A stretch of 64,000 nt of DNA, taken from positions 1-64,000 of the forward strand of contig SWDS01000010.1 of the NCBI GenBank assembly GCA_005116745.1, read 5' to 3'. Below are positions 36,412 to 62,982 of this stretch, piece by piece (the stretch's first letter is position 1; each line of letters starts with the position of its first letter). The notes under the pieces are model-generated. The model was not told the DNA's origin and made no database searches. It saw only the letters and a list, made by a program, of their open reading frames with translations. Made by a program: the position numbers and the translations under genes. The stretch comes from Nitrospira sp. Its GTDB lineage: Bacteria; Nitrospirota; Nitrospiria; Nitrospirales; Nitrospiraceae.

Positions 36412-36502
36412 GACTGTGAAGTGTCGTTGGTCGTCGGTCATTCGTACACATCAGCTCGTGCGTGTCAGGTTTTACGAACGGCAAGATACGTAGGAGGATT
36501 CC

Positions 36503-37294: not shown

Positions 37295-37304
37295 GGAGCG
37301 GCTC

Positions 37305-38105
37305 ATGTCTAGGATTTGGCTGACCATGATCATGCTCCTTTCATCTGTAGTCTTCGACGTGACGACATCACGTGCAGGACCTAGTGGTGGGTCTCGGCCC
37401 ATCCTATCTGAGTCCCGAGGTCCGATTCATCAGGCGACCGACACCGTTGTGGACCGACCGGCTGTCAGTGAGGTCAGTCCTGATCTCATTCGGAAGGCCA
37501 TTCAGAAACATCTGGAGAGCGACTGGGGGCACAAGGTTAAGACGGTACATGTGACGGTGTTGGATCCCGCGGATTCTGTGATGCTCCCCGGCGGGACGGT
37601 GGAGTTGCAAGTTACTCCCAACTCGCTGGAAGAAGGTCTAGGACGGCGGATGTTTCATGTGGAGGCGGTCGCAAACGGGAAATCTCGGAAAACGATCCAG
37701 GTTGTTGCTGATATTGCGGCGATGATCGACGCGGTTGTTGTCACCCGTTTTCTGAAGGCCGATGAACTGATTGATATGAGCGATCTCAAGACGGTCGGAT
37801 TGCGGGTTCATCAGGTGAACCATTCCTTCATCACCGATCAAGCAGAGGTCATCGGAAAGAGCGCATCACGGCCTCTTCCGCCCGAGACACCGCTACGCCC
37901 AGCCTTTGTGAAGCCTCCGTTGGTGATGAAGAAGGGTGATCGAGTCCTCATCGAGGCGCGGCGTGGAGGCCTGTCGATTCGGGCGAGTGGCGTAACGAAA
38001 GCAAACGGACAAGTCGGACAGACCGTCATGGTCACCAATCTGGAGTCCGGTCGGGAGCTAAGAGCCAAAGTGGTGGCTCCAAATCTTGTTGAGGTGGAGT
38101 TCTAG
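37305..38105 (+). CDS. flgA: P-ring assembly chaperone FlgA
   Basis: A 266-residue periplasmic protein. A signal peptide covers about the first 22 residues. The C-terminal SAF-type domain (VVVTRFLKADELIDMSDLK ... VMKKGDRVLIEARRGGLSIRASG ... GQTVMVTNLESGRELRAKV) is typical of FlgA, which helps FlgI to form the P ring. AAGGAGCGG lies before the ATG at 37305; the frame is open further upstream but within the end of flgG. Confidence 0.93.
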   Translation: MSRIWLTMIMLLSSVVFDVTTSRAGPSGGSRPILSESRGPIHQATDTVVDRPAVSEVSPDLIRKAIQKHLESDWGHKVKTVHVTVLDPADSVMLPGGTVELQVTPNSLEEGLGRRMFHVEAVANGKSRKTIQVVADIAAMIDAVVVTRFLKADELIDMSDLKTVGLRVHQVNHSFITDQAEVIGKSASRPLPPETPLRPAFVKPPLVMKKGDRVLIEARRGGLSIRASGVTKANGQVGQTVMVTNLESGRELRAKVVAPNLVEVEF

Positions 38106-40287: not shown

Positions 40288-40677
40288 ATGAACACGCTAG
40301 AACAATACGGAATCCATTCCGGGCCCTCTTCACCAGCATACGTGGATCCTGGATTGACCAGACGCGCGAGTCATCTTGTGTCTCAGATGAGTGCCTCGAC
40401 ATCGCAGGACCCTGCGGCGGCACGTCAACAAATGGTCCAAGCTGGCCAACAGTTCGAGGCCTATTTTGTCTCCTATTTACTGAAGGTAATGAGGGAAACG
40501 GTTCCTGAGGGAAGCATCACCAACAAGCAAGGGGCGTATTTCTACTCATTTTATGACGAGGAAATTGGGAAACGGGCAGCCGAGTCTGGGGGGATAGGCA
40601 TTGCCAAGATGGTTCAGGAGTATGCGCAACAATATTTTTCCTCATCCCCCCCGAAACGCTCAAGTTCTTCTGGGTAA
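40288..40677 (+). CDS. flgJ: Rod-binding protein FlgJ (N-terminal domain only)
   Basis: A 129-residue protein that matches the N-terminal rod-binding half of FlgJ (AGQQFEAYFVSYLLKVMRETVP ... YFYSFYDEEIGKRAAESGGIGIAKM). The muramidase domain of enterobacterial FlgJ is missing, as in many bacteria, so another enzyme must open the cell wall. A GTG at 40279 is an alternative start. The promoter of flgM overlaps its 3' end. Confidence 0.9.
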   Translation: MNTLEQYGIHSGPSSPAYVDPGLTRRASHLVSQMSASTSQDPAAARQQMVQAGQQFEAYFVSYLLKVMRETVPEGSITNKQGAYFYSFYDEEIGKRAAESGGIGIAKMVQEYAQQYFSSSPPKRSSSSG

Positions 40678-40687
40678 GAACCGATAA
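40660..40687 (+). promoter_or_regulatory. Sigma-28-like promoter of flgM
   Basis: TCAAGTTC (40660-40667), 12 bases, ACCGATAA (40680-40687). The E. coli consensus is TAAAGTTT-N11-GCCGATAA. The same -35 octamer and spacing occur before the HD-GYP gene. A late FliA-dependent promoter at flgM is known in enteric bacteria. Confidence 0.6.
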
Positions 40688-40764: not shown

Positions 40765-41070
40765 ATGCAGATTTCAGGCCATGGGAAGGTAGATCATCTT
40801 GCCAAACTGTTACTTGGGGTTCAGGACATCGAGGGGATAGGTAATCGGCAAGCGGCTGCCCGCACCCAGGTGGGTAAAGATGAGGTTCAGATCTCGGCCC
40901 AAGCGAAGGAACTTCAACGGATTCGGGAGCTGGCGAATCAGCCTGACCCTGAACGGAATGAACAGGTGGAGCGCATCAGGCGCGCGCTTGACAGCGGAAC
41001 ATACGATATCAGTGGCCGCGCGGTTGGCGATGCCATCGTGAAGCAGGTTCTAACCGACGCCGTACTCTGA
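40765..41070 (+). CDS. flgM: Anti-sigma-28 factor FlgM
   Basis: A 101-residue protein. The C-terminal half fits FlgM (DEVQISAQAKELQRIREL ... RNEQVERIRRALDSGTYDISGRAVGDAIVKQ). It binds FliA and is exported through the finished hook, which releases FliA for late genes. GGGAAGGAG precedes the ATG. It leads flgN, flgK and flgL in the same direction. Confidence 0.93.
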   Translation: MQISGHGKVDHLAKLLLGVQDIEGIGNRQAAARTQVGKDEVQISAQAKELQRIRELANQPDPERNEQVERIRRALDSGTYDISGRAVGDAIVKQVLTDAVL

Positions 41071-45469: not shown

Positions 45470-45541
45470 GTCCGCCTCTCAAGTTTGTTCCGCGTATGGC
45501 CGATAGTTCAATGTGCCATTGTCAAACTAAGGACGTCTTGT

Positions 45542-46418: not shown

Positions 46419-49310
46419 TCAGGCCGCTGCCTGAGTGATCGGCTGATAACCCTGCCGGTGGGATTCAAGTACACGGACGAGTCGTGCGACTTCGAGTTCG
46501 AGCTGCGCGTAGACGGGCGGGGCGTCGTGGAGCGTATTAAGGCGGCCAACTGCTTCGAGCCGACCGGCAGTCAGTGCGACTTCTGAGGCGCACAGGTTTC
46601 CGGCGGTCCCTTTGAAAGTGTGTGCCAGTCGTTCAACGGTGATCGAATCTGCATCGGCCAAGGCTGTTCTAATGTCAGTGAGCATAGTGTGGTAGCGATC
46701 AAGAAATAGGCAGACGAGTTGAGCAAACAACTCACTGTCGCCACCGATGTTCTGATACATTTGTTCAGGATCAAAGATCCCTCTGGTCGGGTCGATCCTG
46801 ATAGGAGTTGGCTTCTGGTTGCCGGTTACGACCACATTGGGTGGCGTGGATACCCAACGAGCCAGGGCGCTCCGCAGTTCATTGAGTTTGATCGGTTTGG
46901 CGAGATAATCGTCCATCCCTGTCGCCAAACAGCGTTCGCGATCGCCTTGCATCGCATTGGCGGTGACCGCAATGATCGGAATATGCGGAGTCGATTGTGG
47001 TGCCTTGTCTGAACCGTTTGGGCTTTCACCGGGCGAGTCATGCGATGCGACTGCAGCTTCATCGTTGCGAATGCTTCGGGTTGTCTCAAACCCATCCATA
47101 ACGGGCATCTGACAATCCATCAGGATGGCGGCATAGTCTCCCTTGGCGAGCGCCGTCAGCGCTTCTTGACCGTTTCCAACGACGTCTGGTTGGTAGCCAA
47201 GTTTTTCCACCATCCGCACCGCGAGCTTCTGGTTGACAATGTTGTCTTCCACGACTAACACGCGCTGATGGTGCACATGCTCCGCGACCATATGCCTGGT
47301 GACGAGTTGCGGCACGACTGATCGCGTGTGAGTTGTTTGTGGCTCTTGGCTCTCGAGCAGACCCAGAACCGTCCGAAGGCAGTCGCGTAATTCATCATGG
47401 CGGATGGGTTTCGGCAGGTAGCCCATCGCGCCCGCCTGGCGGGCCTGTTCTGCATGGCCACGCTGCAGCATTGAGGTCATGACGACGAGACGAATGCTGG
47501 ATCCAGCCGGGTGACTTTGCAGCTCTCGTGCAAGTTGCAACCCATCCTTTCCGGGCATGATGACGTCCAAGATCGCGAGATCGTACGGCGTTCCCCGCTG
47601 TGCCGCCTCCGCGATGCGGTGCAAAGCCGATTCGGCATCTTCTGCAAGGTCGTCCACCATTCCCCAACCGGATACCAGATGGTGGAGGATCACGCGATTC
47701 GATTCATTGTCATCAACGATCAAGACACGCTTTCCGGTGAGATCTCCGGTCGGGAGAATTGCACATGGAGAATCGACTTGTTTCTGGAGGCGCGCGGTGC
47801 ACCAGAAGGTGCTCCCCTTTCCCTCGGTGCTGCGCACTCCGATCTGCCCACCCATTAATTCCACGAGTTGCTTTGATATGGACAGGCCAAGGCCGGTGCC
47901 GCCATATTTTCTGGTCGTGGAACTGTCCGCCTGCACAAACGGACGGAACAGTTTGTCTTGAGTGTTGGGATTGATTCCAATGCCGCTGTCCGTGACTTCG
48001 AAGCGAATGACGGTTGTGTCGAGGAGGTCTTCTTCGAGATAGGCCTGCAGGGTCACCTCGCCCTTGTCCGTAAACTTCACCGCGTTGGCAACCAGATTGG
48101 TGAGGATCTGACGTAGGCGGCCTGGGTCACCTTTGAGTCCCGTCGGAACTGCGGCGTGTACCAGTCCGGTTAGCTCCAGCCCTTTCGTCTCTGCCCGCTC
48201 AGCGAATTGTGCCAACACCTGCTCCACTGTGGTTCTCAGATTGAAGTCGAGGCGTTCCAGTTCCAGCTTTCCTGCCTCAATCTTACTGCATTCGAGTACG
48301 TCGTTGATCAGCTGCAACAGTGCTTCGCCGCACTGCCGAATGGTCTCTGCGTAGGATTGTTGTTCGGACGTCAAGGACGTCTCCATCAACAGGCTTGTCA
48401 TGCCGATCACCCCGTTCATGGGGGTGCGTAGTTCATGACTGACGGTTGCGAGAAATGCTGTCTTGACGCGTGCCGATTCCTTCGCCACCTCCAGGGCTTG
48501 GTCCAGGCAGCGGTTGCTCTGGAGAAGTTGGTCGGCGGAGAGTTGGAGCGCCTGCTGCGTTTTATGGACGCTCGTCATGTCGATGGCATAGCCACGCACG
48601 ACGTCATGCGTGAGAACCGGGCAGAAGGTCCATGAAAAACTGGCTTCTGGAAGTACGATTGCCTCATCATGAAGCACATAGCCTGTGGTGAGACAGCGTT
48701 GCACGATGTCCGGAAGGCTACGCGGGGCGACGTTGGGAAATCCTTCGAGGCTGTATCCGAATTGAGTGAGCAGGGAGATCATCGCTGGATTGGCATACAA
48801 CAGGCTCATCTGCCGGTCCAGTTCGATCATCGGTAAGGGACTTTCCTCAGCGATCGCGGCCAACCGATTGCAATCCTGCTCCAATTCTCGTTCATGAGAC
48901 AAGTCTCGGATGCTGAGAATCAGTACGGCCTTTCCATTGAATGTGCCGGGTGCGCAGGCCCATTCTACGGGAACGGGAGGGGTTGCTTTCCGCAAGAGGA
49001 GCTGTTGCATGACAGAAGTTGGCCGGCGGCTTTTAAGGACTCCGTTCAGTTGTGCTGTTATAGTGGTTGCGTCGGATCGAGTGAGTCTCGACCACAGGGA
49101 TGGAAAGAAGCGGACCGTAGAGGAAGGAAACCGTGGCCCAAGCAACCGATGGCTCTCCCGATTAACGGACAATACGGTGAGATCAGCATCAAGAATGACG
49201 GTGGCCAGCGGAAGCCCTTCGAGCAGATCGAAGCCTGTCGACGCTGTAGGAAGTGAAGCAGCTAGACGACGTCCGACGCGTCTTCGTTTCCGTCCAAATG
49301 GCTTCATCAT
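46419..49310 (-). CDS. Hybrid sensor histidine kinase (PAS-kinase-REC-REC-Hpt), BarA/GacS-like layout
   Basis: A 963-residue kinase. Order: PAS-type domain (about 20-140), a second PAS (about 145-260), coiled linker, phospho-acceptor His292 (VSHELRTPMNGV), ATPase domain (DSGIGINPNTQ, GTGLGLSI), receiver 1 (Asp582), receiver 2 (Asp732) and a C-terminal Hpt domain with His897 (LAHTFKGTAGNL). No membrane segment is seen. The domain chain resembles BarA/GacS-type phosphorelays, apart from the second receiver and the missing membrane part. It overlaps the HD-GYP gene by 4 bases and is likely transcribed with it. Its target is unknown; it points towards csrA-fliW tail to tail. Confidence 0.9.
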   Translation of the reverse strand: MMKPFGRKRRRVGRRLAASLPTASTGFDLLEGLPLATVILDADLTVLSVNRESHRLLGPRFPSSTVRFFPSLWSRLTRSDATTITAQLNGVLKSRRPTSVMQQLLLRKATPPVPVEWACAPGTFNGKAVLILSIRDLSHERELEQDCNRLAAIAEESPLPMIELDRQMSLLYANPAMISLLTQFGYSLEGFPNVAPRSLPDIVQRCLTTGYVLHDEAIVLPEASFSWTFCPVLTHDVVRGYAIDMTSVHKTQQALQLSADQLLQSNRCLDQALEVAKESARVKTAFLATVSHELRTPMNGVIGMTSLLMETSLTSEQQSYAETIRQCGEALLQLINDVLECSKIEAGKLELERLDFNLRTTVEQVLAQFAERAETKGLELTGLVHAAVPTGLKGDPGRLRQILTNLVANAVKFTDKGEVTLQAYLEEDLLDTTVIRFEVTDSGIGINPNTQDKLFRPFVQADSSTTRKYGGTGLGLSISKQLVELMGGQIGVRSTEGKGSTFWCTARLQKQVDSPCAILPTGDLTGKRVLIVDDNESNRVILHHLVSGWGMVDDLAEDAESALHRIAEAAQRGTPYDLAILDVIMPGKDGLQLARELQSHPAGSSIRLVVMTSMLQRGHAEQARQAGAMGYLPKPIRHDELRDCLRTVLGLLESQEPQTTHTRSVVPQLVTRHMVAEHVHHQRVLVVEDNIVNQKLAVRMVEKLGYQPDVVGNGQEALTALAKGDYAAILMDCQMPVMDGFETTRSIRNDEAAVASHDSPGESPNGSDKAPQSTPHIPIIAVTANAMQGDRERCLATGMDDYLAKPIKLNELRSALARWVSTPPNVVVTGNQKPTPIRIDPTRGIFDPEQMYQNIGGDSELFAQLVCLFLDRYHTMLTDIRTALADADSITVERLAHTFKGTAGNLCASEVALTAGRLEAVGRLNTLHDAPPVYAQLELEVARLVRVLESHRQGYQPITQAAA

Positions 49311-50566
49311 GCAGCTCGCGAAAGGCCTTGGTCTAGGTGTATGCCGATGTTGACTCGTTCTTTGCTGGGGTCTAGGACACGCAACACCGTTCGGATTGTG
49401 TGGTCGGAGGATGGTGTCGCTAGGTCGATGTCAATTGGCGTGGCATACGAGCCTCCTTGCGGGTCGGTCGTGACTTTGACCAGGGGTTTGAGTCGTTGCT
49501 GAGGGTTGACTCCGATGACCACCGCCTGTTCGCCGGTATTGAGTCTGACGAGGCTTCCGACTGGGTAGACTCCGATGCTTCGAATCAGGAGCTCCACGAG
49601 AGATTTTTCAAATAGCCCTTGTTCTCCAGCCAAGAAGAGTTGCCGAACGGCATCGTGTGGAATCATGGCCTGTCGTGTGCCGCGCCGACTCACCATGCCG
49701 TCATAAAAATCGACGATGCCGACGATCTGCGCTAAGTGAAAAATCTGATCATTGCATGACTTGGCTGGAAATCCACCTCCATTGAAGCGCTCATGATGCT
49801 CTCTGACGATGCGTAGGACGTCCTCGTGCATGCCTGGTTGCTCGGAGAGGAGTGTGACGCCAAGCTTACAATGCTGTTCGAGCAAGGTCTTATCTTGTCC
49901 GCTACATTCCTCCCGCTTGCGAACAAGATTGCGTGGGAGGCGGACATATCCCGCGTCATGGAGTAAGGCGCCCATGCCGATTTGTTCTTGTGCTGTGTGA
50001 TCCAATCCGCTTTCCACAGCCACCACGAGCGACAAGATGCAGGTGTCGAGTGCATGAGTTGTCAGTGAGCGGTCGAACTGTTTAATTTTCTGAATGGCGA
50101 GCTGAGTCGCCATCTCGGCACGATGGTTGAGAACTTGGCCTAACACGCTTGATACGATGGCTTTGGTGGCTTCGGGAGACGGTGGAATGCCACGCTCAAG
50201 ATCCTCGAAAATGCGCTCAACCGCTTCTTGAGCCTGGGCGTAAATTGCCGTGGCAGAATGATCGTGAGGTTGAATCTCCGGCGTACATTCGGGCGTTTGA
50301 TCCGGAGGGGCTGGGACATCGACGCTGGGAGATTGCTGGTTTGCAGCATGTTGTGTAGTCGCTGAAGGCTCCGATGGGAGGTCGGACCCTTTACTGGTAT
50401 CGATGCTCACCATCCTGATCCCATGTTGCTTCATGAGTTGGATGGTCTGTTGATCCTTGATCAGGCGTTTATGGGAGAGGAAGGGGGTTCGGTACCACGG
50501 GACATCCATCTCTGTGATGAACATGCCGGGAATCAGCTGCTCGATGGCGATACGTTTTACTGTCAT
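49307..50566 (-). CDS. HD-GYP domain c-di-GMP phosphodiesterase
   Basis: A 419-residue protein. The N-terminal DUF3391-type part (IEQLIPGMFITEMDVPW) is common in HD-GYP enzymes; the catalytic domain has His203-Asp204 (LLHDAGYVRLP) and the loop HHERFNGGGFP (257-267). The usual HHERxDGxGYP reads Asn for Asp and GFP for GYP here, so activity or specificity might differ. It should degrade c-di-GMP and so favour motility. A sigma-28-like promoter lies 70 bases upstream; the kinase gene follows with a 4-base overlap. Confidence 0.88.
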   Translation of the reverse strand: MTVKRIAIEQLIPGMFITEMDVPWYRTPFLSHKRLIKDQQTIQLMKQHGIRMVSIDTSKGSDLPSEPSATTQHAANQQSPSVDVPAPPDQTPECTPEIQPHDHSATAIYAQAQEAVERIFEDLERGIPPSPEATKAIVSSVLGQVLNHRAEMATQLAIQKIKQFDRSLTTHALDTCILSLVVAVESGLDHTAQEQIGMGALLHDAGYVRLPRNLVRKREECSGQDKTLLEQHCKLGVTLLSEQPGMHEDVLRIVREHHERFNGGGFPAKSCNDQIFHLAQIVGIVDFYDGMVSRRGTRQAMIPHDAVRQLFLAGEQGLFEKSLVELLIRSIGVYPVGSLVRLNTGEQAVVIGVNPQQRLKPLVKVTTDPQGGSYATPIDIDLATPSSDHTIRTVLRVLDPSKERVNIGIHLDQGLSRAA

Positions 50567-50635: not shown

Positions 50636-50663
50636 TTATCGGCGGGGCAGGCCTCGAACTTGA
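50636..50663 (-). promoter_or_regulatory. Sigma-28-like promoter of the HD-GYP/kinase operon
   Basis: On the minus strand TCAAGTTC (50663-50656), 12 bases, GCCGATAA (50643-50636). The -10 octamer is perfect against the enteric consensus, and the -35 octamer equals that of flgM with the same spacing. Confidence 0.7.
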
Positions 50664-50724
50664 TTGCATCATGCCGTATGGTTATTGGTTTGATGTCACT
50701 GCTCGCGACCGACCGCGTTGTGGC

Positions 50725-50751
50725 TCAAGATTGACCGATAGTTACCGATAG
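50725..50751 (+). promoter_or_regulatory. Sigma-28-like promoter of the PilZ gene
   Basis: TCAAGATT (50725-50732), 11 bases, ACCGATAG (50744-50751). Six of eight bases match the enteric consensus in each box, with the standard spacing. The start would be near 50758, some 43 bases before the ATG at 50801. It is divergent to the HD-GYP promoter. Confidence 0.58.
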
Positions 50752-50800
50752 AGGTCATCAGAGTTGGTTGGTGTCAGGTGATTGTGTTGGAGTGAGGGTT

Positions 50801-51523
50801 ATGAACGATATCGTCGTATCCGTCCCCCCTGCAGCGTCCTTTTTATCGGTCGGACTGGCACTGAAGCTATCCTTCGCACGTGATCAGCAGAAGGTCATGT
50901 ACGGTACGACGCTTCTTGGATGGAAGGATCATGCGTGGCTTGTCTGCGAATGGCCGCTTCAGCTCGGCCATGACCAGCAGATTGCCGCCGGTACCCCATG
51001 TACCATCAGCTATTTGCATGGCGGGAAGTTGGTCGGGTATCGCAGTGAAATACGCGAGCTGATTACGATGCCGGTTCCGTTGCTCTTTGTAGCATATCCC
51101 AAATCGGTGGAAGAGATGCATCTGCGGAAACATATCCGTGTATCTGCCAACGAACCGACCTTGATGATGCGAGCGACTCATGACAATCCATCAGTATCCG
51201 CGCTACCTACCACAGACTATTTTGGTGGTCTGTTACAGGATCTCAGTGAGGGAGGGTGCAGTGTGCTCGTGGTTCGAACACCGGCCTGGCTTCGACCAGG
51301 CACAACCGTGCACATGGAATTTGAATTGCCAGGCTTGGGGCATATCACCAACCTAGCCGGTATCGTGAAGAATACCGACACGCGAGGAGGCGAGGACATC
51401 ATCGGGATCGAGTTTCACTTCAATCACCTCGAGTACATTGAATATCGTGGGTGGGGCGGATCAGTTCGAAACGCCATAGAACAATGGACGGCACAGAAAG
51501 CCATCGCCTTACCGCCCTTGTGA
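50801..51523 (+). CDS. PilZ-domain c-di-GMP receptor, YcgR-like flagellar brake
   Basis: A 240-residue protein with an N-terminal YcgR-type domain (about 1-100) and a PilZ domain whose c-di-GMP motif is visible: Arg109 and Arg113 (RKHIR) and Asp147, Ser149, Gly152 (DLSEGG). In E. coli YcgR binds the motor when c-di-GMP is high and slows rotation. The ATG at 50801 follows GGAGTGAGGG; a TTG frame start at 50768 is less likely. Its promoter looks FliA-dependent, as for ycgR. Confidence 0.88.
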   Translation: MNDIVVSVPPAASFLSVGLALKLSFARDQQKVMYGTTLLGWKDHAWLVCEWPLQLGHDQQIAAGTPCTISYLHGGKLVGYRSEIRELITMPVPLLFVAYPKSVEEMHLRKHIRVSANEPTLMMRATHDNPSVSALPTTDYFGGLLQDLSEGGCSVLVVRTPAWLRPGTTVHMEFELPGLGHITNLAGIVKNTDTRGGEDIIGIEFHFNHLEYIEYRGWGGSVRNAIEQWTAQKAIALPPL

Positions 51524-52008: not shown

Positions 52009-53262
52009 ATGAACACTGGTGGTAGAACGATGAAGTCCATTTATATTCCATGGACACTTGCGCAGTACCTGAACGGTGCACACCCATTGCTTGTCAGTGT
52101 GCTGGATGGCTTGGCTGGCCAGGTCAGGATTGTAGGGCCTCAAGTCAATGCCACGGTGGATCATACTGAGTTTGCTGCCAACTATGGCCGTCTAGGTGAT
52201 GAATTGCGTGTGTTGACGGGTGTGGATGGTGACACCGTCCAGCGTTTTATCGCGACCAGGTATCATTTGTCCGATGCCTTAGCGCCACCGAATAGCATAG
52301 CATTTCACCACACCATCCTTCCGTCTCTCCGGCATAGCAGCATCGTGCATTTGGAAACTCCTATTCTGTTCTTTTGGCCTGAGGTGTCTCATGGGAAATT
52401 TTCCAGGGGCTCCTCACTGGTAGACCATCCGTTTTATCCCATGATCAGCGCATCGCTCGCACATTCAAATATTAAGAAGATTGTGTCGCATTCGGCTACC
52501 GGACTTCGGTATTTGCGAGGCTTGTTCCCTGATCCTGCGATTCAGGGTAAGACTGCGCATATTCCGCTCATGCCATTCGTGCAGCGGAGTGTCAAGCGGG
52601 CCAGGCAACTGCCAGGTGGGCAGCCGGTCCCACTCACAACGGGCCGGCGGCGGCTTCTGTTCACAAATTCGTTTCATGGCGAGCCGTCCAGCTTTTGGGT
52701 GCGGGGTGGTGTTACTACCCTGCTGGCCTTTCAGCAGGTGGGCGAAGAGATCCCACTGGAGTTGGTCATTGTCGGATCGATTCCCGATGATTTGACCGAA
52801 GAGGTTGCAGATATCTTGCGCTCCCCCTACGTGCTGCACGTTCCAAGGACTGCAGAGTCCGAGTTGCAAGCATATTATGATAGCGCGGATGTGATGCTCT
52901 TGCCTTCAGTCGGGCTTCACTCCATGTCTATCACGCGAGCAATCTGCAGCGGGTGCTATGTGCTGTGTTCCGACGTGCCAGGGGTAGAGGAATATGTGAC
53001 GGATCAGGCAGTCGGCCTGATCCTGAACGGCACAGCAGGGAAACGTGTGTACTTCGATGACACCAAAGTCGATCTCTTGCTAGATGATTATGAGTCGGTG
53101 AAGCAAATCAACTTTGACAATGTGAATACGGTGGCGGAAGCCTTGTACGGCAGGCTCATGGCTGTACCCTGCCGGAATCAGATTCCCTCCGCCTCTCAAT
53201 ATGATGATCCGCATATGCTGATGAGGGCAGCAGAACTGTTTCGGGCGGCATGTGCGGCATGA
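52009..53262 (+). CDS. Glycosyltransferase, GT4-like
   Basis: A 417-residue protein. The C-terminal Rossmann half is visible: GRRRLLFTNSFHG, LELVIVGSIPDDL and YYDSADVMLLPSVGLHSMSITRAICSGCYVLCSDVPGVEEYV, which contains the acidic/hydrophobic pattern of GT4 donors sites but with an unusual Ser-Met-Ser-Ile in place of the common E-x7-E. The N-terminal half is unusual, so the acceptor is not known. It is the first gene of the glycan cluster. A second ATG lies at 52030. Confidence 0.7.
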   Translation: MNTGGRTMKSIYIPWTLAQYLNGAHPLLVSVLDGLAGQVRIVGPQVNATVDHTEFAANYGRLGDELRVLTGVDGDTVQRFIATRYHLSDALAPPNSIAFHHTILPSLRHSSIVHLETPILFFWPEVSHGKFSRGSSLVDHPFYPMISASLAHSNIKKIVSHSATGLRYLRGLFPDPAIQGKTAHIPLMPFVQRSVKRARQLPGGQPVPLTTGRRRLLFTNSFHGEPSSFWVRGGVTTLLAFQQVGEEIPLELVIVGSIPDDLTEEVADILRSPYVLHVPRTAESELQAYYDSADVMLLPSVGLHSMSITRAICSGCYVLCSDVPGVEEYVTDQAVGLILNGTAGKRVYFDDTKVDLLLDDYESVKQINFDNVNTVAEALYGRLMAVPCRNQIPSASQYDDPHMLMRAAELFRAACAA

Positions 53263-53436
53263 GAGTGGTTGTTCCGCACGGCGTTGCCTCGATGCGTGGG
53301 ATGGCAAGTGGGTCGCCGCATTCATTGTGGCTTTGGGTTCTGGGACGTGTACGGAAGGCAATTCAAGTCGGGTCAGGAATGGTGGCGTGTGTCTGGTTAG
53401 TCGTTATGCTCCCGCAAAAACTGGTTAGGTAAGAGC

Positions 53437-56400
53437 ATGTTACTCAATCGAGGATACACAAAGCCTATGGGGAAGCCGAGAGTCCTGCTTCTGCAACTGG
53501 AGTTTTCAACATGGAAACAGGCGAAAGCTTGGTCCTACTTGGGGAACTTCGCGGTGGAGGATGGTCTCCGTGCCAACGGTTGTGAGTGCGTGACGATTCC
53601 GGCACTCTGCGACATACCGGACACTTCACCGTCATCCTGGTTGCATCATGCGAAAAATCTATTGGCTGGCCAACGATTTGATCAGGTCTGGCTATGGCTG
53701 GTTCACAATCGATACTCGGATGCATTTCTTGAATGGGTTGACACGTTGGCACCGGTGAGGGTCGGCCTAATCATGGAGTCCTTGGAGTATAGCGAGGAAG
53801 ACTGTCGCCGCTGGCCGCATTTGCGGGAGCGGGCAGAGTTCGTCGAACGGCAGGTGCGACATATGACGCATGTGTTAGCAGCGGACGAGCATGATGCCGA
53901 AGTACTCAATCGTTCAGGCCTGGTTCAGGCTGTCTTCTGGCCCTCTGCGGTTCCGACTCGCTTCATAACCTCGACCATCGAGTGTCCATCGCATCGTGAG
54001 GCAGCATTTTATGGAGAACTCTATGGAGAACGGAAGTCGTGGCTGGCACTTCCCGGTCTGACGGACTTGCTGGTTCATCCGCCTTCTGCTGAAGCTGCGA
54101 CCGACTATCCTCGGTTATTCGATACACTCCATCAGCAGATGCAGGAGCGCTTGGGGTCTGGGTGGCGACCTGATTTTTCCGCACTTGTGGAATATGTGGG
54201 AGTGTGGCGCCGCTTGCGTGAAGCTATCTTTGCCAATTGGTTGACAAGCCTGAAAACCTGGAGTGCCATCGTCAATCTCCCTAGCTTGTTTCAATCCTAT
54301 GCAGGACGTGTGGTGGAAGCGATGGCTGCGGGTCGTCCCGCGATCTCCTGGGAGATTCCCAATCGGCCTCGTACGCATCAGCTATTCAAGGATGGTCGGG
54401 AAATTCTGCTTTACCCCAAGGATCGTCCCGCAGGCTTGAGAGAACATGTGGAACGGATTTCTCGCGACGCTACCTACGCGAGGGACATTGCCACGGCTGC
54501 TCGCGCAGCACTGCTCCGATCTCATACGGCAGAAGCTCGCGCACGGCAGTGGTTGGATTGGATTATGACCGGGCAGCCGACCCGCAATTGTAAGGAACCA
54601 GCGGAAGGGCCGGCAGTTCTGCAGACAGGCTTGTCTCGGCAGGTGGTTCAGGCCTCGACGACGGTCTTCGTGCTAACGGTGGATGATCCTGTCTTGGAAG
54701 CTTGCCTGGAGGCTTTGCACAAACAGGAAGGGCTACCTTTCAAGCTGGATATCATCAGAAATGTTTATCCCTTCAGTGCTGCGGCACAACGGATGATCAC
54801 CGATTGTGCAACCGAATTCTTTCTCCAGGTCGATGAGGACATGATTCTCCATCCGGATGCAGTGATGACGATGGAAGCCACGATCAGGCAGGCGCCGGAT
54901 GATGTGGGGATGATCTGTTTCCATTTGTTCGACGAGGATCGTGGTGTGCCGATCCAAGGGGTAAAAATCTATCGAACGGCGCTCATGAAGTCGCTGGTGT
55001 TTCAAGATGTCAAAGCCAGCGAGATGGATCTTCTGGAGCAGATGGGCCATCACGGCATCAAATGGATCCTCCATCCTGACGTCAAGGGCCGCCATGGCAC
55101 GTCCTATACGGTCGACACCATCTATCGTCGTTACAAGACCATGTACGAGAAGGATATTCGGCAATGGAACGTCCTGACGTCCGATATCTGCCGCAAGGCG
55201 GACTCATTTCGCCAAACAGGCGATCCGCTCCAGCTTTTTGCGTTGCTGGGCGCGGCGCACGGTATTATTAATGCCCCCCTAGCGGTCGACAGCGAGAAGG
55301 ACGCCCGTCTCTACAACCTCGTGGAACTTGATGTGTTCAGGCGGTTGCTTCTAGGGAATCCACCGGTGCCCCAACCCTATACCGCGGGGAGGCAAGCGCC
55401 GCCACCAACGCATGAGCCGATTCCGTTTGAGCATGTGCAGTGGAAGCCGGAGGGTGATCAGAATCCGGCGCGCATGATTGTGGACTGTGCCACGAAGCAG
55501 GAGAACGGAGCGCGAACCAAATCAGTACTGATTGTGACGCCGCATTTTTGGCCATCGGTCGGAGGTGTGGAGCGTGTCGCGGAAGAGCTTGGAGTCGGAT
55601 TGTTGGGTTACGGGTACCACGTCGATATTGCCACCTATCCAAATCCCACGCGTCACCTCACGACGCACAGGGGACTCTCGATCATTACCCTGTCTCCTCA
55701 TGATCGTCAAGAAGGGACGGTTCACGTCTGTGCTCTGGAAGTGGAGCGGCTCATCAGTTCAGGAGAATACGACACCTGTGTGATGTTGGGCGCACCGGTC
55801 AATGGTCTGTTCTACGGAGCGATGACAGGATTGTTATCAAATAAGACCCGACTGATCTTTCAGCCGACGATGAATAAAGAAATCTGCGAACTGTTGTCGT
55901 CCAGCATGAGTCACGCCAAAGACCTTGTGGTTCGACTCGCGGCTTGTGCCCATCACCTCGTGGTGTTGTCGGAGCAAGGCTGCGATGCCTTCTTCTTCGG
56001 GCAATATGGTCTCAAGACGACCTATTTGCCTAACGGCATCCCGGCCCAGCAGTCCCACACCGAGTTTCGCAAAGAGTACGGAATCTCATCTGACGCATTT
56101 CTCATCCTTCATATTGCAAACCTCTACCCGGTTAAAAATCACCTGGGTTTGCTCGATGTGTTTGCGTCTGTCCCGCAAGGCGCGAAACTCGTTTTGGTCG
56201 GCCACCTGACAGATAACGCGGAGTATGTCGCCCAAGTTCGGCGGGTGCTGGCAAGCAGGTCGGAGGTGCTTTATATTCCAGGACTTTCATCCGAGGGCGT
56301 CGCCGCAGCCATGCGAGCGGCGGATGTCCTGGTGGTGCCCTCGCATGCGGAGGCTTCTCCGCTGTGCATCCTTGAAGCGATGAGCCATCAATTGCCGTGG

Positions 56401-59400
56401 ATGGCAACGCCCGAATGCGACGCCGCGCATGAACAAGCTGGCGGCGTGGTGATTCCCTTAGTCGACTTCAGACGGGCTGTCAAACTGCTGATGCGAGAAC
56501 CGGCATTGCGCCGAACACTCGGTGAAACGGGCTACGCGCACTGGGAAGCCTGCCGTCAATGGTCTGCGGTGTTGGAGGGATGGATAGAACTGATCAAAAC
56601 GGATCGCTTGACCAGATCATATATGATGCCACCAGACTTGGTTGAGCGTACGACTGCGCAACGACAGGCATTCGCGACACAATTAGGTCGCGCCGAGCCA
56701 GAATTCGGCGGGATGACATCCGTCGGCAGTAAGCCGTCGATACGCGACGTGGCAAAGCAGACCAACGGAGGGAGCATGAAGTCGGACGCGTTTTATGTGA
56801 ACCTGTTTGTCAATGCTCCGGCATGGTCTACACCCAATCCGAACGCTGACGAAGCGGCACGGTGGAGCAAGATCGCGGCCTTCCTGGAGTACATCCTTCG
56901 CCGCGAACGCCAGCAGGAGCCGAACAAACAGCTCAGAATGTTGGATGTTGGGTGTGGTCGAGGCTGGTTGACCAATCTCGCCACAATGTACGGGACCTGT
57001 GAAGGCATTGAGCCGGTTGCCGGCGTCGTCGAGCACGCGCACAAGCTGTTCCCTCACCTCAAGTTCGAAGCGGGCATGGCGGATAGTGTCTTGACCCGTT
57101 CAGATTTTGCTCCCTATGACGTGGTGCTTACGTCCGAAGTCATCGAGCATGTCCCGCATGGGCAAAAGGAAAAGTTTCTGGCGCAGCTAGCCCAGCTCCT
57201 CAAGCCTGAGGGCTATCTCATTCTCACGACTCCGCGGGGTGAAATGTGGGAACAGTGGAAGACGATTGCGCCGCCGAATCAGCCGGTTGAAGACTGGGTT
57301 ACCGAAGAGCAACTACGCACATTGCTTAGAGGAGAGGGGTTCACAGAATCGGGGCTTGAGCGCATTCATGTCGAAGTACCGAATCTTCGGTATATACCGG
57401 CTCCGACTCCGGCCGACGTACGTTCCATGAATCTGATACCGATCTATCAAGTGTGGGCTTGCCAGCGGACCGCCGACCCAGCGGCTATTCCTTTTACACG
57501 CGTTCCGAAAGTGTCCGTCATCGTGCCGACATACAACCGGCCGGAGCGTCTGAGGGCAGCGCTCGCCAGTCTGGCCGCGCAAACATATCAGGACTTCGAG
57601 GTTATCGTGGTGAACGACTTCGGCTCCGAGGTGGAGTCCATCATCGCCGCCTGCGCTGATCGATCTCGCATCACGACGATCTGCCATGATCGAAACCGTG
57701 GGTTGGCCGCGGCGCGAAACAGTGGACTGCGCGTGGCGAAGGGCACGTACGTAGCCTATCTTGACGATGATGATCGGTATCTCTCGAATCATCTGGAAAC
57801 GCTGGCTGCGTATCTCGATCGCCACGAATGCCGTATTGCCTACACCGATGCGTGGCGCGTGCATGAACGACAGATCGACGGCCAGTATGTCGAGACTGCG
57901 CGAGACGTGCCGTACTCGAAGGAATTCAGTCCGGCTGATCTCCTGGTCAGCAACTATTTTCCCGTGTTGTGCGTCATGCATGCGCGGCAATGTGTGGACG
58001 AGGTAGGGGGATTCGACGAATCGCTGTTTGCGCACGAGGATTGGGATCTCTGGATTAGAATGGCGACCAGGTTTCCTTTCAAGCATCTGCCTGTGACGAC
58101 GGCGGAATTCACATGGCGAAGTGACGGCTCGTCCATGACAAGCGGAACCAGGGATGCCTATTGGCGCACAACCGAGATCATCTATCGTAAGTATGCGCCC
58201 TACGCGGAACGCATTGCCGGTGTACGGGAGGGCCAGCAGCGGAATCTCCAAAAGTTCCAGGCCGAAGCGTCCGCGAAGTCCTACGTCTGTTCGGTAATCA
58301 TTCCCGTATGGAACTGCTGTGAGTTGACTCGTCAATGTTTAGCGGCTCTAGTCAAGACGACCGAGGGAATATCATGGGAACTGATCGTCGTCGACAACCA
58401 CTCGACCGATGATACGGCTTCCTTCCTCTCTAGCCTTGCTGGCGACGTTCAAATAATCAGCAACCAGGAAAATCTTGGATTTGCGAAAGCCTGCAACCAA
58501 GGGGCACGAGTCGCGCGCAGCCAATATCTTGTGTTCTTGAACAATGACACGATCCCACAGCCAGGCTGGCTTTCCTCACTGGTGTCCGAAGTGGACGCCC
58601 ATCCGGAAGTGGGTATCGTCGGTAGCAAGCTCTTGTATCCTGATGGCACGGTGCAACATGCTGGCGTCGTTCGGGACCTGGAGCATCGCTTGCCCTATCA
58701 TATCTATAAATCCTTCGCTGGTGATCATCCGGTCGTCAATCAACGGCGTGAATTCCAGATCGTCACGGCTGCTTGTCTGCTGATCCGGAGATCTTTGTTC
58801 GAGGAAGTGGGCGGGTTCGACGAAGGATATGTGAACGGATTCGAAGATGCGGATCTGTGTCTGAAAGTGCGGGAGCGCGGCTATGTGATCGTCTATCAAC
58901 CCCGAAGCGTTGTTCTTCATCTCGAAAGCCAAACTGCCGGAAGGAAGATTCACGACGACACAAACGCGATTCGTTTCTTGGATCGGTGGGAGGAGCAATG
59001 GTGGGCGGCCGACGAAGATCTGCACTTCTATATCAGTGGCTACAAATTTAAACGCATCTTCCGTAATGGGCAACTGGGTGGCGATATTGTGCGATTGGAC
59101 GATGTGAAGGATGGGGCCATTTGGGCGCATGTGGCGGCAGTCCAAACCGCTGCACTGAAGAAGGATTGGGAATCTGTCAAACGTGAACTACAATTGGTGG
59201 AGAATTGGCCGAACGACCAGTTTGTGCTGTCCTGGGGCGCGATGGTGGCCGAGCGTCTCCAAGCGCCGATCAGCCGTACTAAGTTTCTCTCGCGCTATGT
59301 GGCGTTGGTCGATGCGCCCACAGAACGGCTCGCGCTGATCCGAGCCTTGCTGGAACAGAAGGATTTGGTGGGGGCAGAGGAACAGCTCCGGGTCTTACTC

Positions 59401-59901
59401 GCGTCTTCCCCGAGTCATGCAGAAGGACTGTTGCTGAGAGGCATCCTGTGCATGCAGCGGGAACAGTATGAGCAAGCGGAGATGGCCTTTGGTTTGGCGA
59501 TGCGAGAAGGAGCCGATCGCAAGAAATGTCTCATGGGAATGGGAATGGCCGCAATGGGACGGGCCTACACACAGGGAGCCTGGGAGCATTTTCTACACGT
59601 GTTAGAGGAGCATCCAGACGATGCCGAAGCCATCCATTGGCTCTTACGCGCCGGTACGGCACAAAACCGCTGGGATGAGCTGAGCCGGCATTTGTGCAAG
59701 TATTTGGTGCGCAATCCGGCCGACTTGGCGATCCGTTTTGCGCTGGCGGGTGCGTTGGTTCGGGGAGAGCACATCGAGGCGGCAAGTCTGGAATACGAAA
59801 CGCTTCGTACGCTTGCGCCGACATTCGATGGTTTGAACGAACTTGGTCAAGTTATCGCAAGAAAACAAGCCGTCTCCACAATGGAAGCCGCGCACTCTTG
59901 A
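53437..59901 (+). CDS. Giant multi-domain glycosyltransferase / methyltransferase
   Basis: A 2154-residue protein with several enzyme modules in one chain: a CgeB-like glycosyltransferase (about 13-375, VVEAMAAGRPAIS); a GT2-like fold (about 404-560) with the DxD-like DEDMI; a GT4 module (about 690-1055) with PHFWPSVGGVERVAEELG and SHAEASPLCILEAM; an SAM methyltransferase (about 1110-1330, LDVGCGRGWLT at 1168); a GT2 (about 1357-1600, VIVPTYNRPERL and YLDDDDR); a second GT2 of the rhamnosyltransferase kind (about 1615-1870, VIIPVWNCCELT, FLNNDTI); and TPR-type helices (about 1890-2140). It probably builds a glycan chain on a protein or carrier; flagellin is plausible because of the neighbourhood. 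The start at 53437 follows GTAAGAG; ATG at 53467 is possible. Confidence 0.85.
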   Translation: MLLNRGYTKPMGKPRVLLLQLEFSTWKQAKAWSYLGNFAVEDGLRANGCECVTIPALCDIPDTSPSSWLHHAKNLLAGQRFDQVWLWLVHNRYSDAFLEWVDTLAPVRVGLIMESLEYSEEDCRRWPHLRERAEFVERQVRHMTHVLAADEHDAEVLNRSGLVQAVFWPSAVPTRFITSTIECPSHREAAFYGELYGERKSWLALPGLTDLLVHPPSAEAATDYPRLFDTLHQQMQERLGSGWRPDFSALVEYVGVWRRLREAIFANWLTSLKTWSAIVNLPSLFQSYAGRVVEAMAAGRPAISWEIPNRPRTHQLFKDGREILLYPKDRPAGLREHVERISRDATYARDIATAARAALLRSHTAEARARQWLDWIMTGQPTRNCKEPAEGPAVLQTGLSRQVVQASTTVFVLTVDDPVLEACLEALHKQEGLPFKLDIIRNVYPFSAAAQRMITDCATEFFLQVDEDMILHPDAVMTMEATIRQAPDDVGMICFHLFDEDRGVPIQGVKIYRTALMKSLVFQDVKASEMDLLEQMGHHGIKWILHPDVKGRHGTSYTVDTIYRRYKTMYEKDIRQWNVLTSDICRKADSFRQTGDPLQLFALLGAAHGIINAPLAVDSEKDARLYNLVELDVFRRLLLGNPPVPQPYTAGRQAPPPTHEPIPFEHVQWKPEGDQNPARMIVDCATKQENGARTKSVLIVTPHFWPSVGGVERVAEELGVGLLGYGYHVDIATYPNPTRHLTTHRGLSIITLSPHDRQEGTVHVCALEVERLISSGEYDTCVMLGAPVNGLFYGAMTGLLSNKTRLIFQPTMNKEICELLSSSMSHAKDLVVRLAACAHHLVVLSEQGCDAFFFGQYGLKTTYLPNGIPAQQSHTEFRKEYGISSDAFLILHIANLYPVKNHLGLLDVFASVPQGAKLVLVGHLTDNAEYVAQVRRVLASRSEVLYIPGLSSEGVAAAMRAADVLVVPSHAEASPLCILEAMSHQLPWMATPECDAAHEQAGGVVIPLVDFRRAVKLLMREPALRRTLGETGYAHWEACRQWSAVLEGWIELIKTDRLTRSYMMPPDLVERTTAQRQAFATQLGRAEPEFGGMTSVGSKPSIRDVAKQTNGGSMKSDAFYVNLFVNAPAWSTPNPNADEAARWSKIAAFLEYILRRERQQEPNKQLRMLDVGCGRGWLTNLATMYGTCEGIEPVAGVVEHAHKLFPHLKFEAGMADSVLTRSDFAPYDVVLTSEVIEHVPHGQKEKFLAQLAQLLKPEGYLILTTPRGEMWEQWKTIAPPNQPVEDWVTEEQLRTLLRGEGFTESGLERIHVEVPNLRYIPAPTPADVRSMNLIPIYQVWACQRTADPAAIPFTRVPKVSVIVPTYNRPERLRAALASLAAQTYQDFEVIVVNDFGSEVESIIAACADRSRITTICHDRNRGLAAARNSGLRVAKGTYVAYLDDDDRYLSNHLETLAAYLDRHECRIAYTDAWRVHERQIDGQYVETARDVPYSKEFSPADLLVSNYFPVLCVMHARQCVDEVGGFDESLFAHEDWDLWIRMATRFPFKHLPVTTAEFTWRSDGSSMTSGTRDAYWRTTEIIYRKYAPYAERIAGVREGQQRNLQKFQAEASAKSYVCSVIIPVWNCCELTRQCLAALVKTTEGISWELIVVDNHSTDDTASFLSSLAGDVQIISNQENLGFAKACNQGARVARSQYLVFLNNDTIPQPGWLSSLVSEVDAHPEVGIVGSKLLYPDGTVQHAGVVRDLEHRLPYHIYKSFAGDHPVVNQRREFQIVTAACLLIRRSLFEEVGGFDEGYVNGFEDADLCLKVRERGYVIVYQPRSVVLHLESQTAGRKIHDDTNAIRFLDRWEEQWWAADEDLHFYISGYKFKRIFRNGQLGGDIVRLDDVKDGAIWAHVAAVQTAALKKDWESVKRELQLVENWPNDQFVLSWGAMVAERLQAPISRTKFLSRYVALVDAPTERLALIRALLEQKDLVGAEEQLRVLLASSPSHAEGLLLRGILCMQREQYEQAEMAFGLAMREGADRKKCLMGMGMAAMGRAYTQGAWEHFLHVLEEHPDDAEAIHWLLRAGTAQNRWDELSRHLCKYLVRNPADLAIRFALAGALVRGEHIEAASLEYETLRTLAPTFDGLNELGQVIARKQAVSTMEAAHS

Positions 59902-59976
59902 ATGGATTCAGCGTGCCGTGTGTGCTGAACCCGACGCGTTCTCCACTGGCTTAGTGCGAATAGAAGGTAAAAAGAA

Positions 59977-61152
59977 ATGCCACGCGCACTTGTCATACAA
60001 CTGGCCCGATTGGGAGATCTGGTGCAATCGCTGCCGGCCATTACACAGCTCCGCGTCCGTCATCCCGAGACGCAATTGGATCTGCTCTGTCCGTCTCATC
60101 TTGCTGAGGTGGGACGTCTGCTGCCTGGCATTGAGAAGGTCCTTGAGTGGGATGGAGCGGCCTGGCAGCGCCGGGCAATGGCTGCCCAGCAGGACGTACG
60201 CGCGGAGCATCTTGCCGAGGTCGAAACAACCTTGATGGCGCTGGCGCCGGACCGCTACGACTGCGCGTATGTCCTCAATCAACATCGTCGGGCGCTGGTG
60301 GCCGGCTCCTTACTTGCTCGAGAGGTGAAAGGACCATTGCTATATGGGCCGCTCGGCGAGACGCTGACACCTTGGGCTGCCTACGTACGTGATGTGGCGC
60401 AGCGGCGTCTAGGGCAACGTGTGCATTTGGCTGATGCCTTCTGCGGACTCTGTGGAGTTTCTCCGCCTGGGCATATCACTCCCCTCGTTCCTCCCGCTGT
60501 CCGATTGCCTGAGGACTTGGAACTGATCGGCAAACATGGTGATCCATGGATCGCGCTTATTGTCGGAGCAGGGGAGGTCGAGCGGTGTGTGCCCACGGAG
60601 GTCTGGCGCCGGTGGATCACCTCATTTCTTGCGTCCACGTCGCGGGGACGTGTCGTACTTGTCGGAACAGAGTGCGAACGAGCCGCAGAGATTCAATCGC
60701 TGCTGCCTCCATCGGCTCTGGGTCGGATTTGGGACACGACGGGTCGCACGTCGCTGTCGCAGCTTGCGGCCATTCTCGTTCGCTGTCATCAAGTCGTCGG
60801 TTCGGATACAGGTCCCCTGCATCTCGCTGCGGCGCTTGGCAGGCCGGTGATCGGTTGGTATTTTGCGCGGGCACGGGTCCATGAAACGGGACCGTATGGA
60901 ACGAACCATTGGGTGTGGCAATCAGAGCATGGAGATGTGGACGAACGGGGGGTGCTCGCGCCATGCCAATGGCCGGTCGATGAGACCATCTCGCTTTTGT
61001 CTCATCAAGTTCCCACATCCACAGAGAATTGGTCGTTGTGGGCAAGCCACCGGGATGAGTTGGGAGCCTACTATGTTGAGGCAGGGCATGAAGCGATCGC
61101 GCCGCTTCAGCGAACGCAGATCTGGAAGGAACTACAACCATCTCCGGTGTGA
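59977..61152 (+). CDS. GT9 family glycosyltransferase (heptosyltransferase-like)
   Basis: A 391-residue protein. The N-terminus ALVIQLARLGDLVQSLPAI and the C-terminal VGSDTGPLHLAAALGRPVIGWYF are typical of the GT9/heptosyltransferase family, which transfers heptose or a related sugar from ADP- or other nucleotide sugars. The motif near the end reads LAPCQWP, as in other GT9 proteins. The acceptor is unknown; place in the cluster suggests surface or flagellar glycan. It begins 75 bases after the giant gene. Confidence 0.85.
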   Translation: MPRALVIQLARLGDLVQSLPAITQLRVRHPETQLDLLCPSHLAEVGRLLPGIEKVLEWDGAAWQRRAMAAQQDVRAEHLAEVETTLMALAPDRYDCAYVLNQHRRALVAGSLLAREVKGPLLYGPLGETLTPWAAYVRDVAQRRLGQRVHLADAFCGLCGVSPPGHITPLVPPAVRLPEDLELIGKHGDPWIALIVGAGEVERCVPTEVWRRWITSFLASTSRGRVVLVGTECERAAEIQSLLPPSALGRIWDTTGRTSLSQLAAILVRCHQVVGSDTGPLHLAAALGRPVIGWYFARARVHETGPYGTNHWVWQSEHGDVDERGVLAPCQWPVDETISLLSHQVPTSTENWSLWASHRDELGAYYVEAGHEAIAPLQRTQIWKELQPSPV

Positions 61153-61164
61153 CAAGAGGTTTCG

Positions 61165-62982
61165 GTGGAGTATCTCAATCAAAATATAGAACGCCTACAT
61201 CACTCCTCATCGGCTCTTATTCGTGCTGTGAAGGAAAGTTCCGGTGGGGTACTCGCGGTTGTACCCTCTCGCGAAGGCTCTCCTTCGGCCATGTACCAAG
61301 GGCAATGGGTCCATAGCGCGTACGATCCGAAGAAAGAGGCCAGATCGTGGGCTGAGCAACAAGTCAAGGAATGGAAAACCGGAGAGTTGGGCGTTGTTCT
61401 CGGCGTCGGGCTGCTCTATCACGTGGAGGCACTGGCGATTGTGAAGCCCCACGATTCGCGCCTAGCCGTCGTGATTCCTGATGTTGCGGTCTTCAAAGAT
61501 GCGCTTGGCATTCGCGCTCTTGGAACATGGCTCGATACGGTTCAGTGGATGATCGGCACACCGGAGGAAATGGCCGAGCAGCTAGCGTCACAATCAGCAC
61601 CTCTGCGGTTCTTTACATACGGGCCAGCTGCGCGACTGCATATCGAAGCGCATCAGCGGCTTGAGACGAACCTGCGCCGACTTGTGGCCAGCAAAGCAGG
61701 AGGGCAGTTGCATGTTGCAGTGGTCGGCCCGATCTATGGGGGATCCTTACCGATTGCTCGGTATGTCGTGTCGGCGTTGAACGAGCTGGGGCATCGGGTC
61801 AGTTGGCTTGACCACAGTGCCCATCACGCGAGCTACGAAACCTTTGGATCCTTCCGCGAGGATCGGCATCGACTGACTGTGCAGAGCCGCTTTGCCGACG
61901 TGCTGAGTCTGAGCACGATCACCCACATTGCAGAAGATCCCCCGGACCTCGTTCTAGCTATCGCGCAGGCTCCGTTGACGTTGGCGGTCTTGCAGCATCT
62001 GCGGAAGAAGAAGTTTCCGACGGCGATGTGGTTCGTGGAAAACTATCGACACCTCACCTACTGGCAGCAACTAGCGGGGGGGTATGACTACTGGTTCGTC
62101 ATTCAACAATCCGAATGTATCGAGGCATTGAAACGCGCTGGGGCTGCTCACGTTCATTACCTTCCCATGGCGGCGGACCCCAGTGTCCATCATCCCTTAG
62201 CGCTAACATCCGCCGAGCAACTGGAATACGGCGCTGATGTGTCATTTGTCGGAGCAGGGTATGCGAATCGACGGAGTCTGTTGCCGCAGTGGCTCTCTCC
62301 TGAGTGGACCTTCAAGCTATGGGGGAATGAATGGGATGGAGTCAGCGACCTTTCCAGAGTCCTTCAACGGAACGGCGCCCGTATCGACACCGAGACATGC
62401 ATGAAGGTGTTTAATGCGACAGCTGTGAATCTGAACCCACATTCCTCTTCCGGCATGGGCTTGGATCCTCATCCGGATTTCGTCAATCCTCGCACCTTTG
62501 AGCTGGCCGCATGCGGAGCCTTTCAATTGGTCGATGAAAGAACGCTCCTTCCCGATCTCTTTACGTCCGAGGAAGTCGTGCGGTTTCGTCGAGCTGAAGA
62601 GGTACCACAGTTGATCCGGACATGGCTCAAGGAATCGCCAGGTCGACGAGCCTCTGCCGAGGCTTCACGCCGGCGTGTTTTGCGAGACCATACCTATCGG
62701 CACCGTCTGCAAGAGCTCCTGGCTGTCGTCGGTATGCGTCAGCCAGATCGAATCGGCTCGATCTTGCGAGGGGACCGATCGACGACCGTACTGAAGGAAC
62801 GCGCTGCTACGATGCCTGAACTTATTCCCTTACTCAGCAAGTTTCCGCCCGGTCAACGAGTCGAGCTGAAAGATCTTGCCGCAGATATTCGAACGCGAGC
62901 ACCAGGTCGCCAACTTGCCCGCGAAGAGTTGTTAGTGTTGATGCTCGACAGTTATCGAGCTGAACAAAGAGACTTGGTATGA
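61165..62982 (+). CDS. CgeB/YkvP-like glycosyltransferase
   Basis: A 605-residue protein. The first 175 residues hold GVGLLYHVEALAIVKP, a glycine-rich stretch that resembles the N-terminal part of Maf/DUF115-related proteins. From 183 (HVAVVGPIYGGSLPIARYVV) a glycosyltransferase fold starts, with VSFVGAGYANRRSLL at about 359 and SGMGLDPHPDFVNPRTFELAACG at about 430 as in CgeB-family proteins. The last 90 residues are helical. It starts with GTG after AGAGG, 12 bases behind the GT9 gene, and overlaps the next by 4. Confidence 0.72.
   Translation: MEYLNQNIERLHHSSSALIRAVKESSGGVLAVVPSREGSPSAMYQGQWVHSAYDPKKEARSWAEQQVKEWKTGELGVVLGVGLLYHVEALAIVKPHDSRLAVVIPDVAVFKDALGIRALGTWLDTVQWMIGTPEEMAEQLASQSAPLRFFTYGPAARLHIEAHQRLETNLRRLVASKAGGQLHVAVVGPIYGGSLPIARYVVSALNELGHRVSWLDHSAHHASYETFGSFREDRHRLTVQSRFADVLSLSTITHIAEDPPDLVLAIAQAPLTLAVLQHLRKKKFPTAMWFVENYRHLTYWQQLAGGYDYWFVIQQSECIEALKRAGAAHVHYLPMAADPSVHHPLALTSAEQLEYGADVSFVGAGYANRRSLLPQWLSPEWTFKLWGNEWDGVSDLSRVLQRNGARIDTETCMKVFNATAVNLNPHSSSGMGLDPHPDFVNPRTFELAACGAFQLVDERTLLPDLFTSEEVVRFRRAEEVPQLIRTWLKESPGRRASAEASRRRVLRDHTYRHRLQELLAVVGMRQPDRIGSILRGDRSTTVLKERAATMPELIPLLSKFPPGQRVELKDLAADIRTRAPGRQLAREELLVLMLDSYRAEQRDLV

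Follow-up and report, generated by a model that had tools for sequence, protein, structure and literature searches.

We identified a pair of sigma-28-like sites that point outwards from a 116-base stretch (positions 50636-50751) between an HD-GYP gene, here HD-GYP(a), and a ycgR-like gene in a Nitrospira genome. It is highly likely that this stretch comprises two divergent FliA promoters, which would drive ycgR and the operon of HD-GYP(a) and a hybrid kinase together with the late flagellar class, with the YcgR-like protein as the presumed brake on the motor, HD-GYP(a) probably impaired in catalysis and its paralogue, HD-GYP(b), as the likelier enzyme to release the brake.

Genes at the locus

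The window, that is, the whole stretch of DNA that was analysed, extends over the first 64 kb of contig C10, in a genome of 3.86 Mb, and is largely a flagellar region. It carries flgE, fliM, flhA (FHIPEP), fliA, flgF, flgA, flgH, flgI and flgJ, as well as an SRP54-type GTPase gene that is presumably flhF. Further genes are flgM, flgN, flgK, flgL, csrA and fliW, followed by the hybrid kinase, HD-GYP, ycgR and glycosyltransferase genes. Between flgF and flgA there is also an open frame of 340 aa (36380-37402, minus strand) that lies largely opposite other frames; a search for Pfam and NCBIfam matches to it returned none, and it is probably not a gene.

HD-GYP(a) (49307-50566, minus strand) consists of a DUF3391 and an HD-GYP domain (HD_5), and its matches at 92-95% identity among the named relatives are Nitrospira metagenome-assembled genomes. 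The gene overlaps by 4 bases with that of a hybrid histidine kinase (46419-49310, minus strand; PAS, PAS, HisKA, HATPase, receiver domains and Hpt), and the kinase lies downstream of HD-GYP(a) in 74/79 named loci. On the other side of the gap, the YcgR-like protein (50801-51523, plus strand; PilZNR and PilZ domains) contains the c-di-GMP motifs RKHIR and DLSEGG, matching RxxxR and D/NxSxxG, and both motifs are present in all 71 relatives examined. The brake mechanism of YcgR is credited to Paul 2010 and Fang and Gomelsky 2010, as these are cited in two articles (PMC5635695, PMC5300878), and the Nitrospira protein would, by analogy, be expected to brake this motor in a c-di-GMP-dependent way. 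Between ycgR and flagellin, we also observed a run of glycosyltransferase genes (52009-62982), one of them encoding a protein of 2154 aa that carries multiple glycosyltransferase and methyltransferase domains, which possibly serves flagellin glycosylation.

Two divergent sigma-28-like sites in the gap

The two outward-pointing sites reported by the first-pass annotation were found letter for letter. The one facing HD-GYP(a) (50636-50663, minus strand; TCAAGTTC-N12-GCCGATAA) is located ~70 nt upstream of the ATG and reads in full, from 50663 to 50636, TCAAGTTC-GAGGCCTGCCCC-GCCGATAA. Its counterpart facing ycgR (50725-50751, plus strand; TCAAGATT-N11-ACCGATAG) is located ~50 nt upstream of the ATG at 50801 and reads in full TCAAGATT-GACCGATAGTT-ACCGATAG. 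Both have a TAAA/TCAAG-like -35 box, a GCCGATAA-like -10 box and sigma-28 spacing, and neither a sigma-70-like promoter nor a terminator-like site was found when these were looked for between HD-GYP(a) and ycgR.

We searched the 3.86 Mb genome with the strict pattern TCAAGN{14,18}CCGATA, which gave 15 matches compared with 6 for the reversed pattern used as a control. Eight of the 15 fall in a 52 kb flagellar and chemotaxis stretch (C10:40.6-91.8 kb), where they precede HD-GYP, ycgR, flgM, csrA-fliW, flagellin, an HTH gene and two chemoreceptor-like genes. The site before the gene for the anti-sigma-28 factor FlgM (40765-41070) is at 40660-40687 and that before csrA-fliW at 45479-45506, both on the plus strand. 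A similar site precedes csrA in several relatives, which suggests that these regulators of flagellin translation are also under FliA control. The remaining sites of this set (loci L066 and L067), with genes judged from their translations, precede flagellin (C10:65317), the small HTH gene, which is followed by a cheY-like gene (C10:72774), and the two chemoreceptor-like genes (C10:85490 and 91742). Outside the cluster, sigma-28-like sites precede an Hpt-like and response-regulator pair (C1:125718; L068) and a PAS/GAF-like sensor gene (C6:380981; L070), again judged from translations. Four strict matches (C1:308967, C6:562006, C8:239602 and C10:732531) have no convincing flagellar gene among the downstream frames, and some of these may be chance matches.

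A two-box matrix was trained on six other sites of the genome, those before flgM, csrA-fliW, flagellin, the two chemoreceptor-like genes and the HTH gene, with both gap sites left out. The gap sites score 23.7 and 23.4 with this matrix, in a test that is partly circular because the pattern that collected the training sites was derived from the gap sites themselves. The next-best untrained site in 160 kb, inside a glycosyltransferase gene, reaches 19.4, and six order-2 Markov sequences of equal length have peak scores of 15.8-19.5, none higher. Non-circular support comes from the flagellar company of the other pattern matches and from conservation.

Conservation of the promoter pair

In the 30 loci closest to the one in the window, the two promoters occur at matching places with few exceptions. 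Mean pairwise identity between close relatives is 0.93 for the -10 box and 0.94 for the -35 box of the HD-GYP(a) promoter, compared with 0.59 for its spacer, and 0.91 and 0.85 for the respective boxes of the ycgR promoter, compared with 0.53 for its spacer, which is mostly N12 in close relatives. Between the promoters the identity is 0.56, and in the leaders 0.62-0.63. The divergence of the spacers and flanks around them shows that selection acts on the boxes. As a separate observation, close relatives share, at ~90% conservation, a block around TCATCAG (50753-50763) just 3' of the ycgR -10 box, where transcription is expected to start; this is almost the level of the promoter boxes.

More broadly, the strict divergent pair is present in 68/79 named Nitrospirota loci, which are related by descent and so do not represent 68 independent events. 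These loci, for which gene starts were corrected, extend down to 38% protein identity, and those with the pair include N. moscoviensis (L135). The N. defluvii group (L168-L170, L173 and L175) has TAAAG or TCAGG variants, and one of the sites is lost or altered in a few relatives (L106, L117, L127 and L130).

The gap sites repeat a single consensus in inverted orientation about a centre, as would be expected of the operator dyad of a transcription factor. We consider this very improbable and rejected it, given that the two -35 boxes lie anywhere from 2 to 119 bp apart among relatives (mostly ~70), with free spacer letters, whereas the internal spacing of each site stays at 11-12. Moreover, single copies of the element precede flgM, csrA, flagellin and the chemoreceptor-like genes, and the gap offers no other promoter-like site. 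Coincidental matches within non-coding DNA of the gap can practically be dismissed as an explanation: patterns of this kind are common if two mismatches are allowed, but here an exact pair in the correct outward orientation scores above random sequence, and conservation of the boxes genus-wide on a diverged background contradicts chance. Thus, both gap sites are very probably sigma-28 (FliA) promoters, and their sequence, spacing, orientation, conservation and regulon company make co-expression of HD-GYP(a) and ycgR with the late flagellar class the best inference.

Linkage to fliA

The presumed reader of the gap sites is encoded in the window itself by fliA (sigma-28; 34264-35013, plus strand), the product of which scores 255 bits with TIGR02479 (cut-off 189.6) and has FliA chains among its best PDB matches. 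In a sample of 59 Nitrospira genomes, including that of the window, an HD-GYP(a) orthologue is present in 50. FliA is above the family cut-off in 52, to which G053 adds a large fragment at a contig edge. The sites are accompanied both by a FliA gene in the genome and by linkage of the HD-GYP(a) gene to fliA: it occurs in 50/53 genomes with fliA and in 0/6 without (G002, G015, G021, G036, G046 and G047; Fisher p = 2e-6, a value that ignores shared ancestry and genome incompleteness). Likewise, ycgR was found in none of these six genomes, and both HD-GYP(a) and ycgR are absent from the FliA-positive genomes G014, G020 and G054.

A second HD-GYP protein

In species more distantly related to that of the window, HD-GYP(a) faces a second HD-GYP gene, b; its product is ~30% identical to a, and ycgR comes after it. 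The gap between b and ycgR is usually ~9 bases in these species, which suggests that, where b adjoins ycgR, the latter rides on the b promoter. In the lineage of the window, b is missing from the locus, and a close relative of b is encoded elsewhere in this genome (C6:958110-959327). All b proteins form one clade with support of 100/100 in a tree whose rooting is arbitrary and some rows of which are fragments.

A sigma-28-like site, TTAAGATTTGCTGACGCGGACCGATAA, lies ~60 nt upstream of the ATG of the displaced b gene; it was located from genome-wide match lists with one mismatch, which served this purpose only, being too noisy for regulon definition. Such a site precedes 19/22 b copies of the window's lineage, second copies of tandem pairs included. 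Tandem duplication of b was observed in several species (L087, L090, L091, L099 and L085), with a sigma-28-like site before one or both copies. The recurrence of a sigma-28-like site before b or ycgR across the different arrangements argues that FliA control is the preserved feature.

Is HD-GYP(a) a phosphodiesterase?

Aligned with PmGH (4mcw), the HD-GYP(a) residues H171, H203, D204, H232, H257, H258 and D286 fall on the metal ligands, D286 being Asn in one relative. Tyr207 falls on Lys225, so that HD-GYP(a) retains an HD-GYP domain with metal ligands and lacks the Lys of HDxGK; its second motif is HHERFNGGGFP. At the HDxG position, a proteins have Tyr in 76/79 and Gln in 3/79 cases and never Lys, and b proteins have Lys in 29/30. 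The b protein encoded at C6:958110 contains HDIGK, the metal ligands and HHExx(D/N)GxGYP, with N for D in its own copy (HHERVNGAGYP). In PmGH, the K225A substitution had an effect like the loss of a metal ligand (PMC4159591), and for the V. cholerae HD-GYP set a good correlation was found between activity and the conservation of such residues (PMC4212101). The label of phosphodiesterase previously given to the gene at 49307-50566 is therefore not supported, even though the metal ligands are kept: because Tyr occupies the position of a Lys that PmGH needs, HD-GYP(a) is, by analogy, probably not an ordinary phosphodiesterase and its catalysis is probably impaired.

A doubtful alternative is that HD-GYP(a) works as a c-di-GMP phosphodiesterase despite the change from Lys to Tyr, in which case brake and release would be complete at this locus alone. 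Such activity would be in line with the conservation of the gene, the seven shared metal ligands and the retention of equivalents of PmGH Asp183, Asp308, Arg314 and Lys317, the last as Arg, and PmGH tolerates changes in its GYP motif with little effect on activity (PMC4159591). Against it stand the K225A result, the prevalence of Tyr and absence of Lys at that position in the family, and the presence in many of the same genomes of the canonical paralogue b with its own sigma-28-like site.

We therefore favour an impaired HD-GYP(a) that, having lost the catalytic lysine, probably binds c-di-GMP or a partner. More tentatively, HD-GYP(a) might have evolved from a phosphodiesterase into a c-di-GMP receptor or adaptor that keeps its metal- and base-binding residues and reports c-di-GMP through the hybrid kinase to a phosphorelay at the time of flagellum completion, with the active b and YcgR setting the brake; we hypothesize that the kinase feeds this c-di-GMP input into the phosphorelay. 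As the phosphodiesterase holding the brake off, b (C6:958110) is a likelier candidate than HD-GYP(a). The earlier proposal that the motor gets its brake and the means of release at the same moment from the two genes at this gap is thus supported as regards their sigma-28-like promoters, whereas the release falls more plausibly to b.

Proposed mechanism

The following scheme adds predicted promoter activity, FliA dependence, timing, brake function and enzyme activities to the computed sites, their match to the late-class sites of the genome, their conservation, the linkage to fliA and the paralogue and motif data. Upon completion of the hook-basal body, FlgM would be exported and FliA freed. 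RNA polymerase with FliA would then read rightwards into ycgR and leftwards into the operon of HD-GYP(a) and the hybrid kinase, and would also transcribe flagellin, the chemoreceptor-like genes, flgM and csrA-fliW. HD-GYP(b) would be made from its own sigma-28-like promoter in this genome and, in other species, from the gap considered here. At low c-di-GMP, YcgR would stay off the motor, and with rising c-di-GMP it would engage. Feedback on FliA and on flagellin is known, and having flgM and csrA-fliW under the same type of promoter would agree with it.

Comparison with known systems

In E. coli, pdeH and ycgR are unlinked; BifA of Pseudomonas is an EAL-type enzyme. The Nitrospira arrangement resembles that of E. 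coli pdeH and ycgR in the predicted FliA control over a c-di-GMP phosphodiesterase and a PilZ motor brake. Among the FliA-dependent class 3 genes of E. coli is pdeH (yhjH), and ycgR is likewise under FliA (PMC5635695, PMC5300878), as the first-pass annotation stated for the latter. Unlike in E. coli, where the enzyme is of the EAL type, the Nitrospira genes encode HD-GYP proteins and are either divergent at one locus or, for ycgR, in an apparent operon with b; furthermore, the operon includes a hybrid kinase and its HD-GYP is altered. Similarly, the phosphodiesterase gene bifA is FliA-dependent in P. putida and P. aeruginosa (PMC5300878, PMC4866697), and the rise of BifA driven by FliA has been proposed to act as positive feedback that promotes motility (PMC5300878, PMC4866697, PMC5026340), whereas in Nitrospira a PilZ gene is linked with a pair of HD-GYP paralogues. 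Given pdeH/yhjH and bifA as precedents (PMC5635695, PMC5300878, PMC4866697), FliA control of a phosphodiesterase is not unexpected, contrary to the earlier remark on the phosphodiesterase-kinase operon.

HD-GYP(a) belongs with PmGH (4mcw) and Bd1817 (3tm8) in the HD-GYP family by sequence, with aligned metal ligands. It differs from PmGH in the Tyr at Lys225, and Bd1817, an inactive structural relative, also departs at this position (HDYGH in the alignment). In the open-access literature that we searched, no publication dealt with FliA targets in Nitrospira or with the function of its HD-GYP proteins, and no explicit example of a FliA-dependent HD-GYP protein was found; such absence is no proof of novelty.

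To conclude, FliA control over both a motor brake and a phosphodiesterase is a known principle, and what differs here is the use of HD-GYP rather than EAL proteins, the linkage to ycgR, the altered paralogue with its kinase, and the phylum. The annotated phosphodiesterase adjoining ycgR is probably not the active enzyme, which is probably b, and annotations of this locus should be read with that warning in mind. Our results suggest that FliA control of the brake and the phosphodiesterase, known in proteobacteria with EAL enzymes, extends to another phylum with HD-GYP proteins. This analysis provides a prediction, testable and genus-wide, of the way in which c-di-GMP would be linked to the completion of the flagellum in Nitrospira, which are key nitrifiers and difficult to manipulate.
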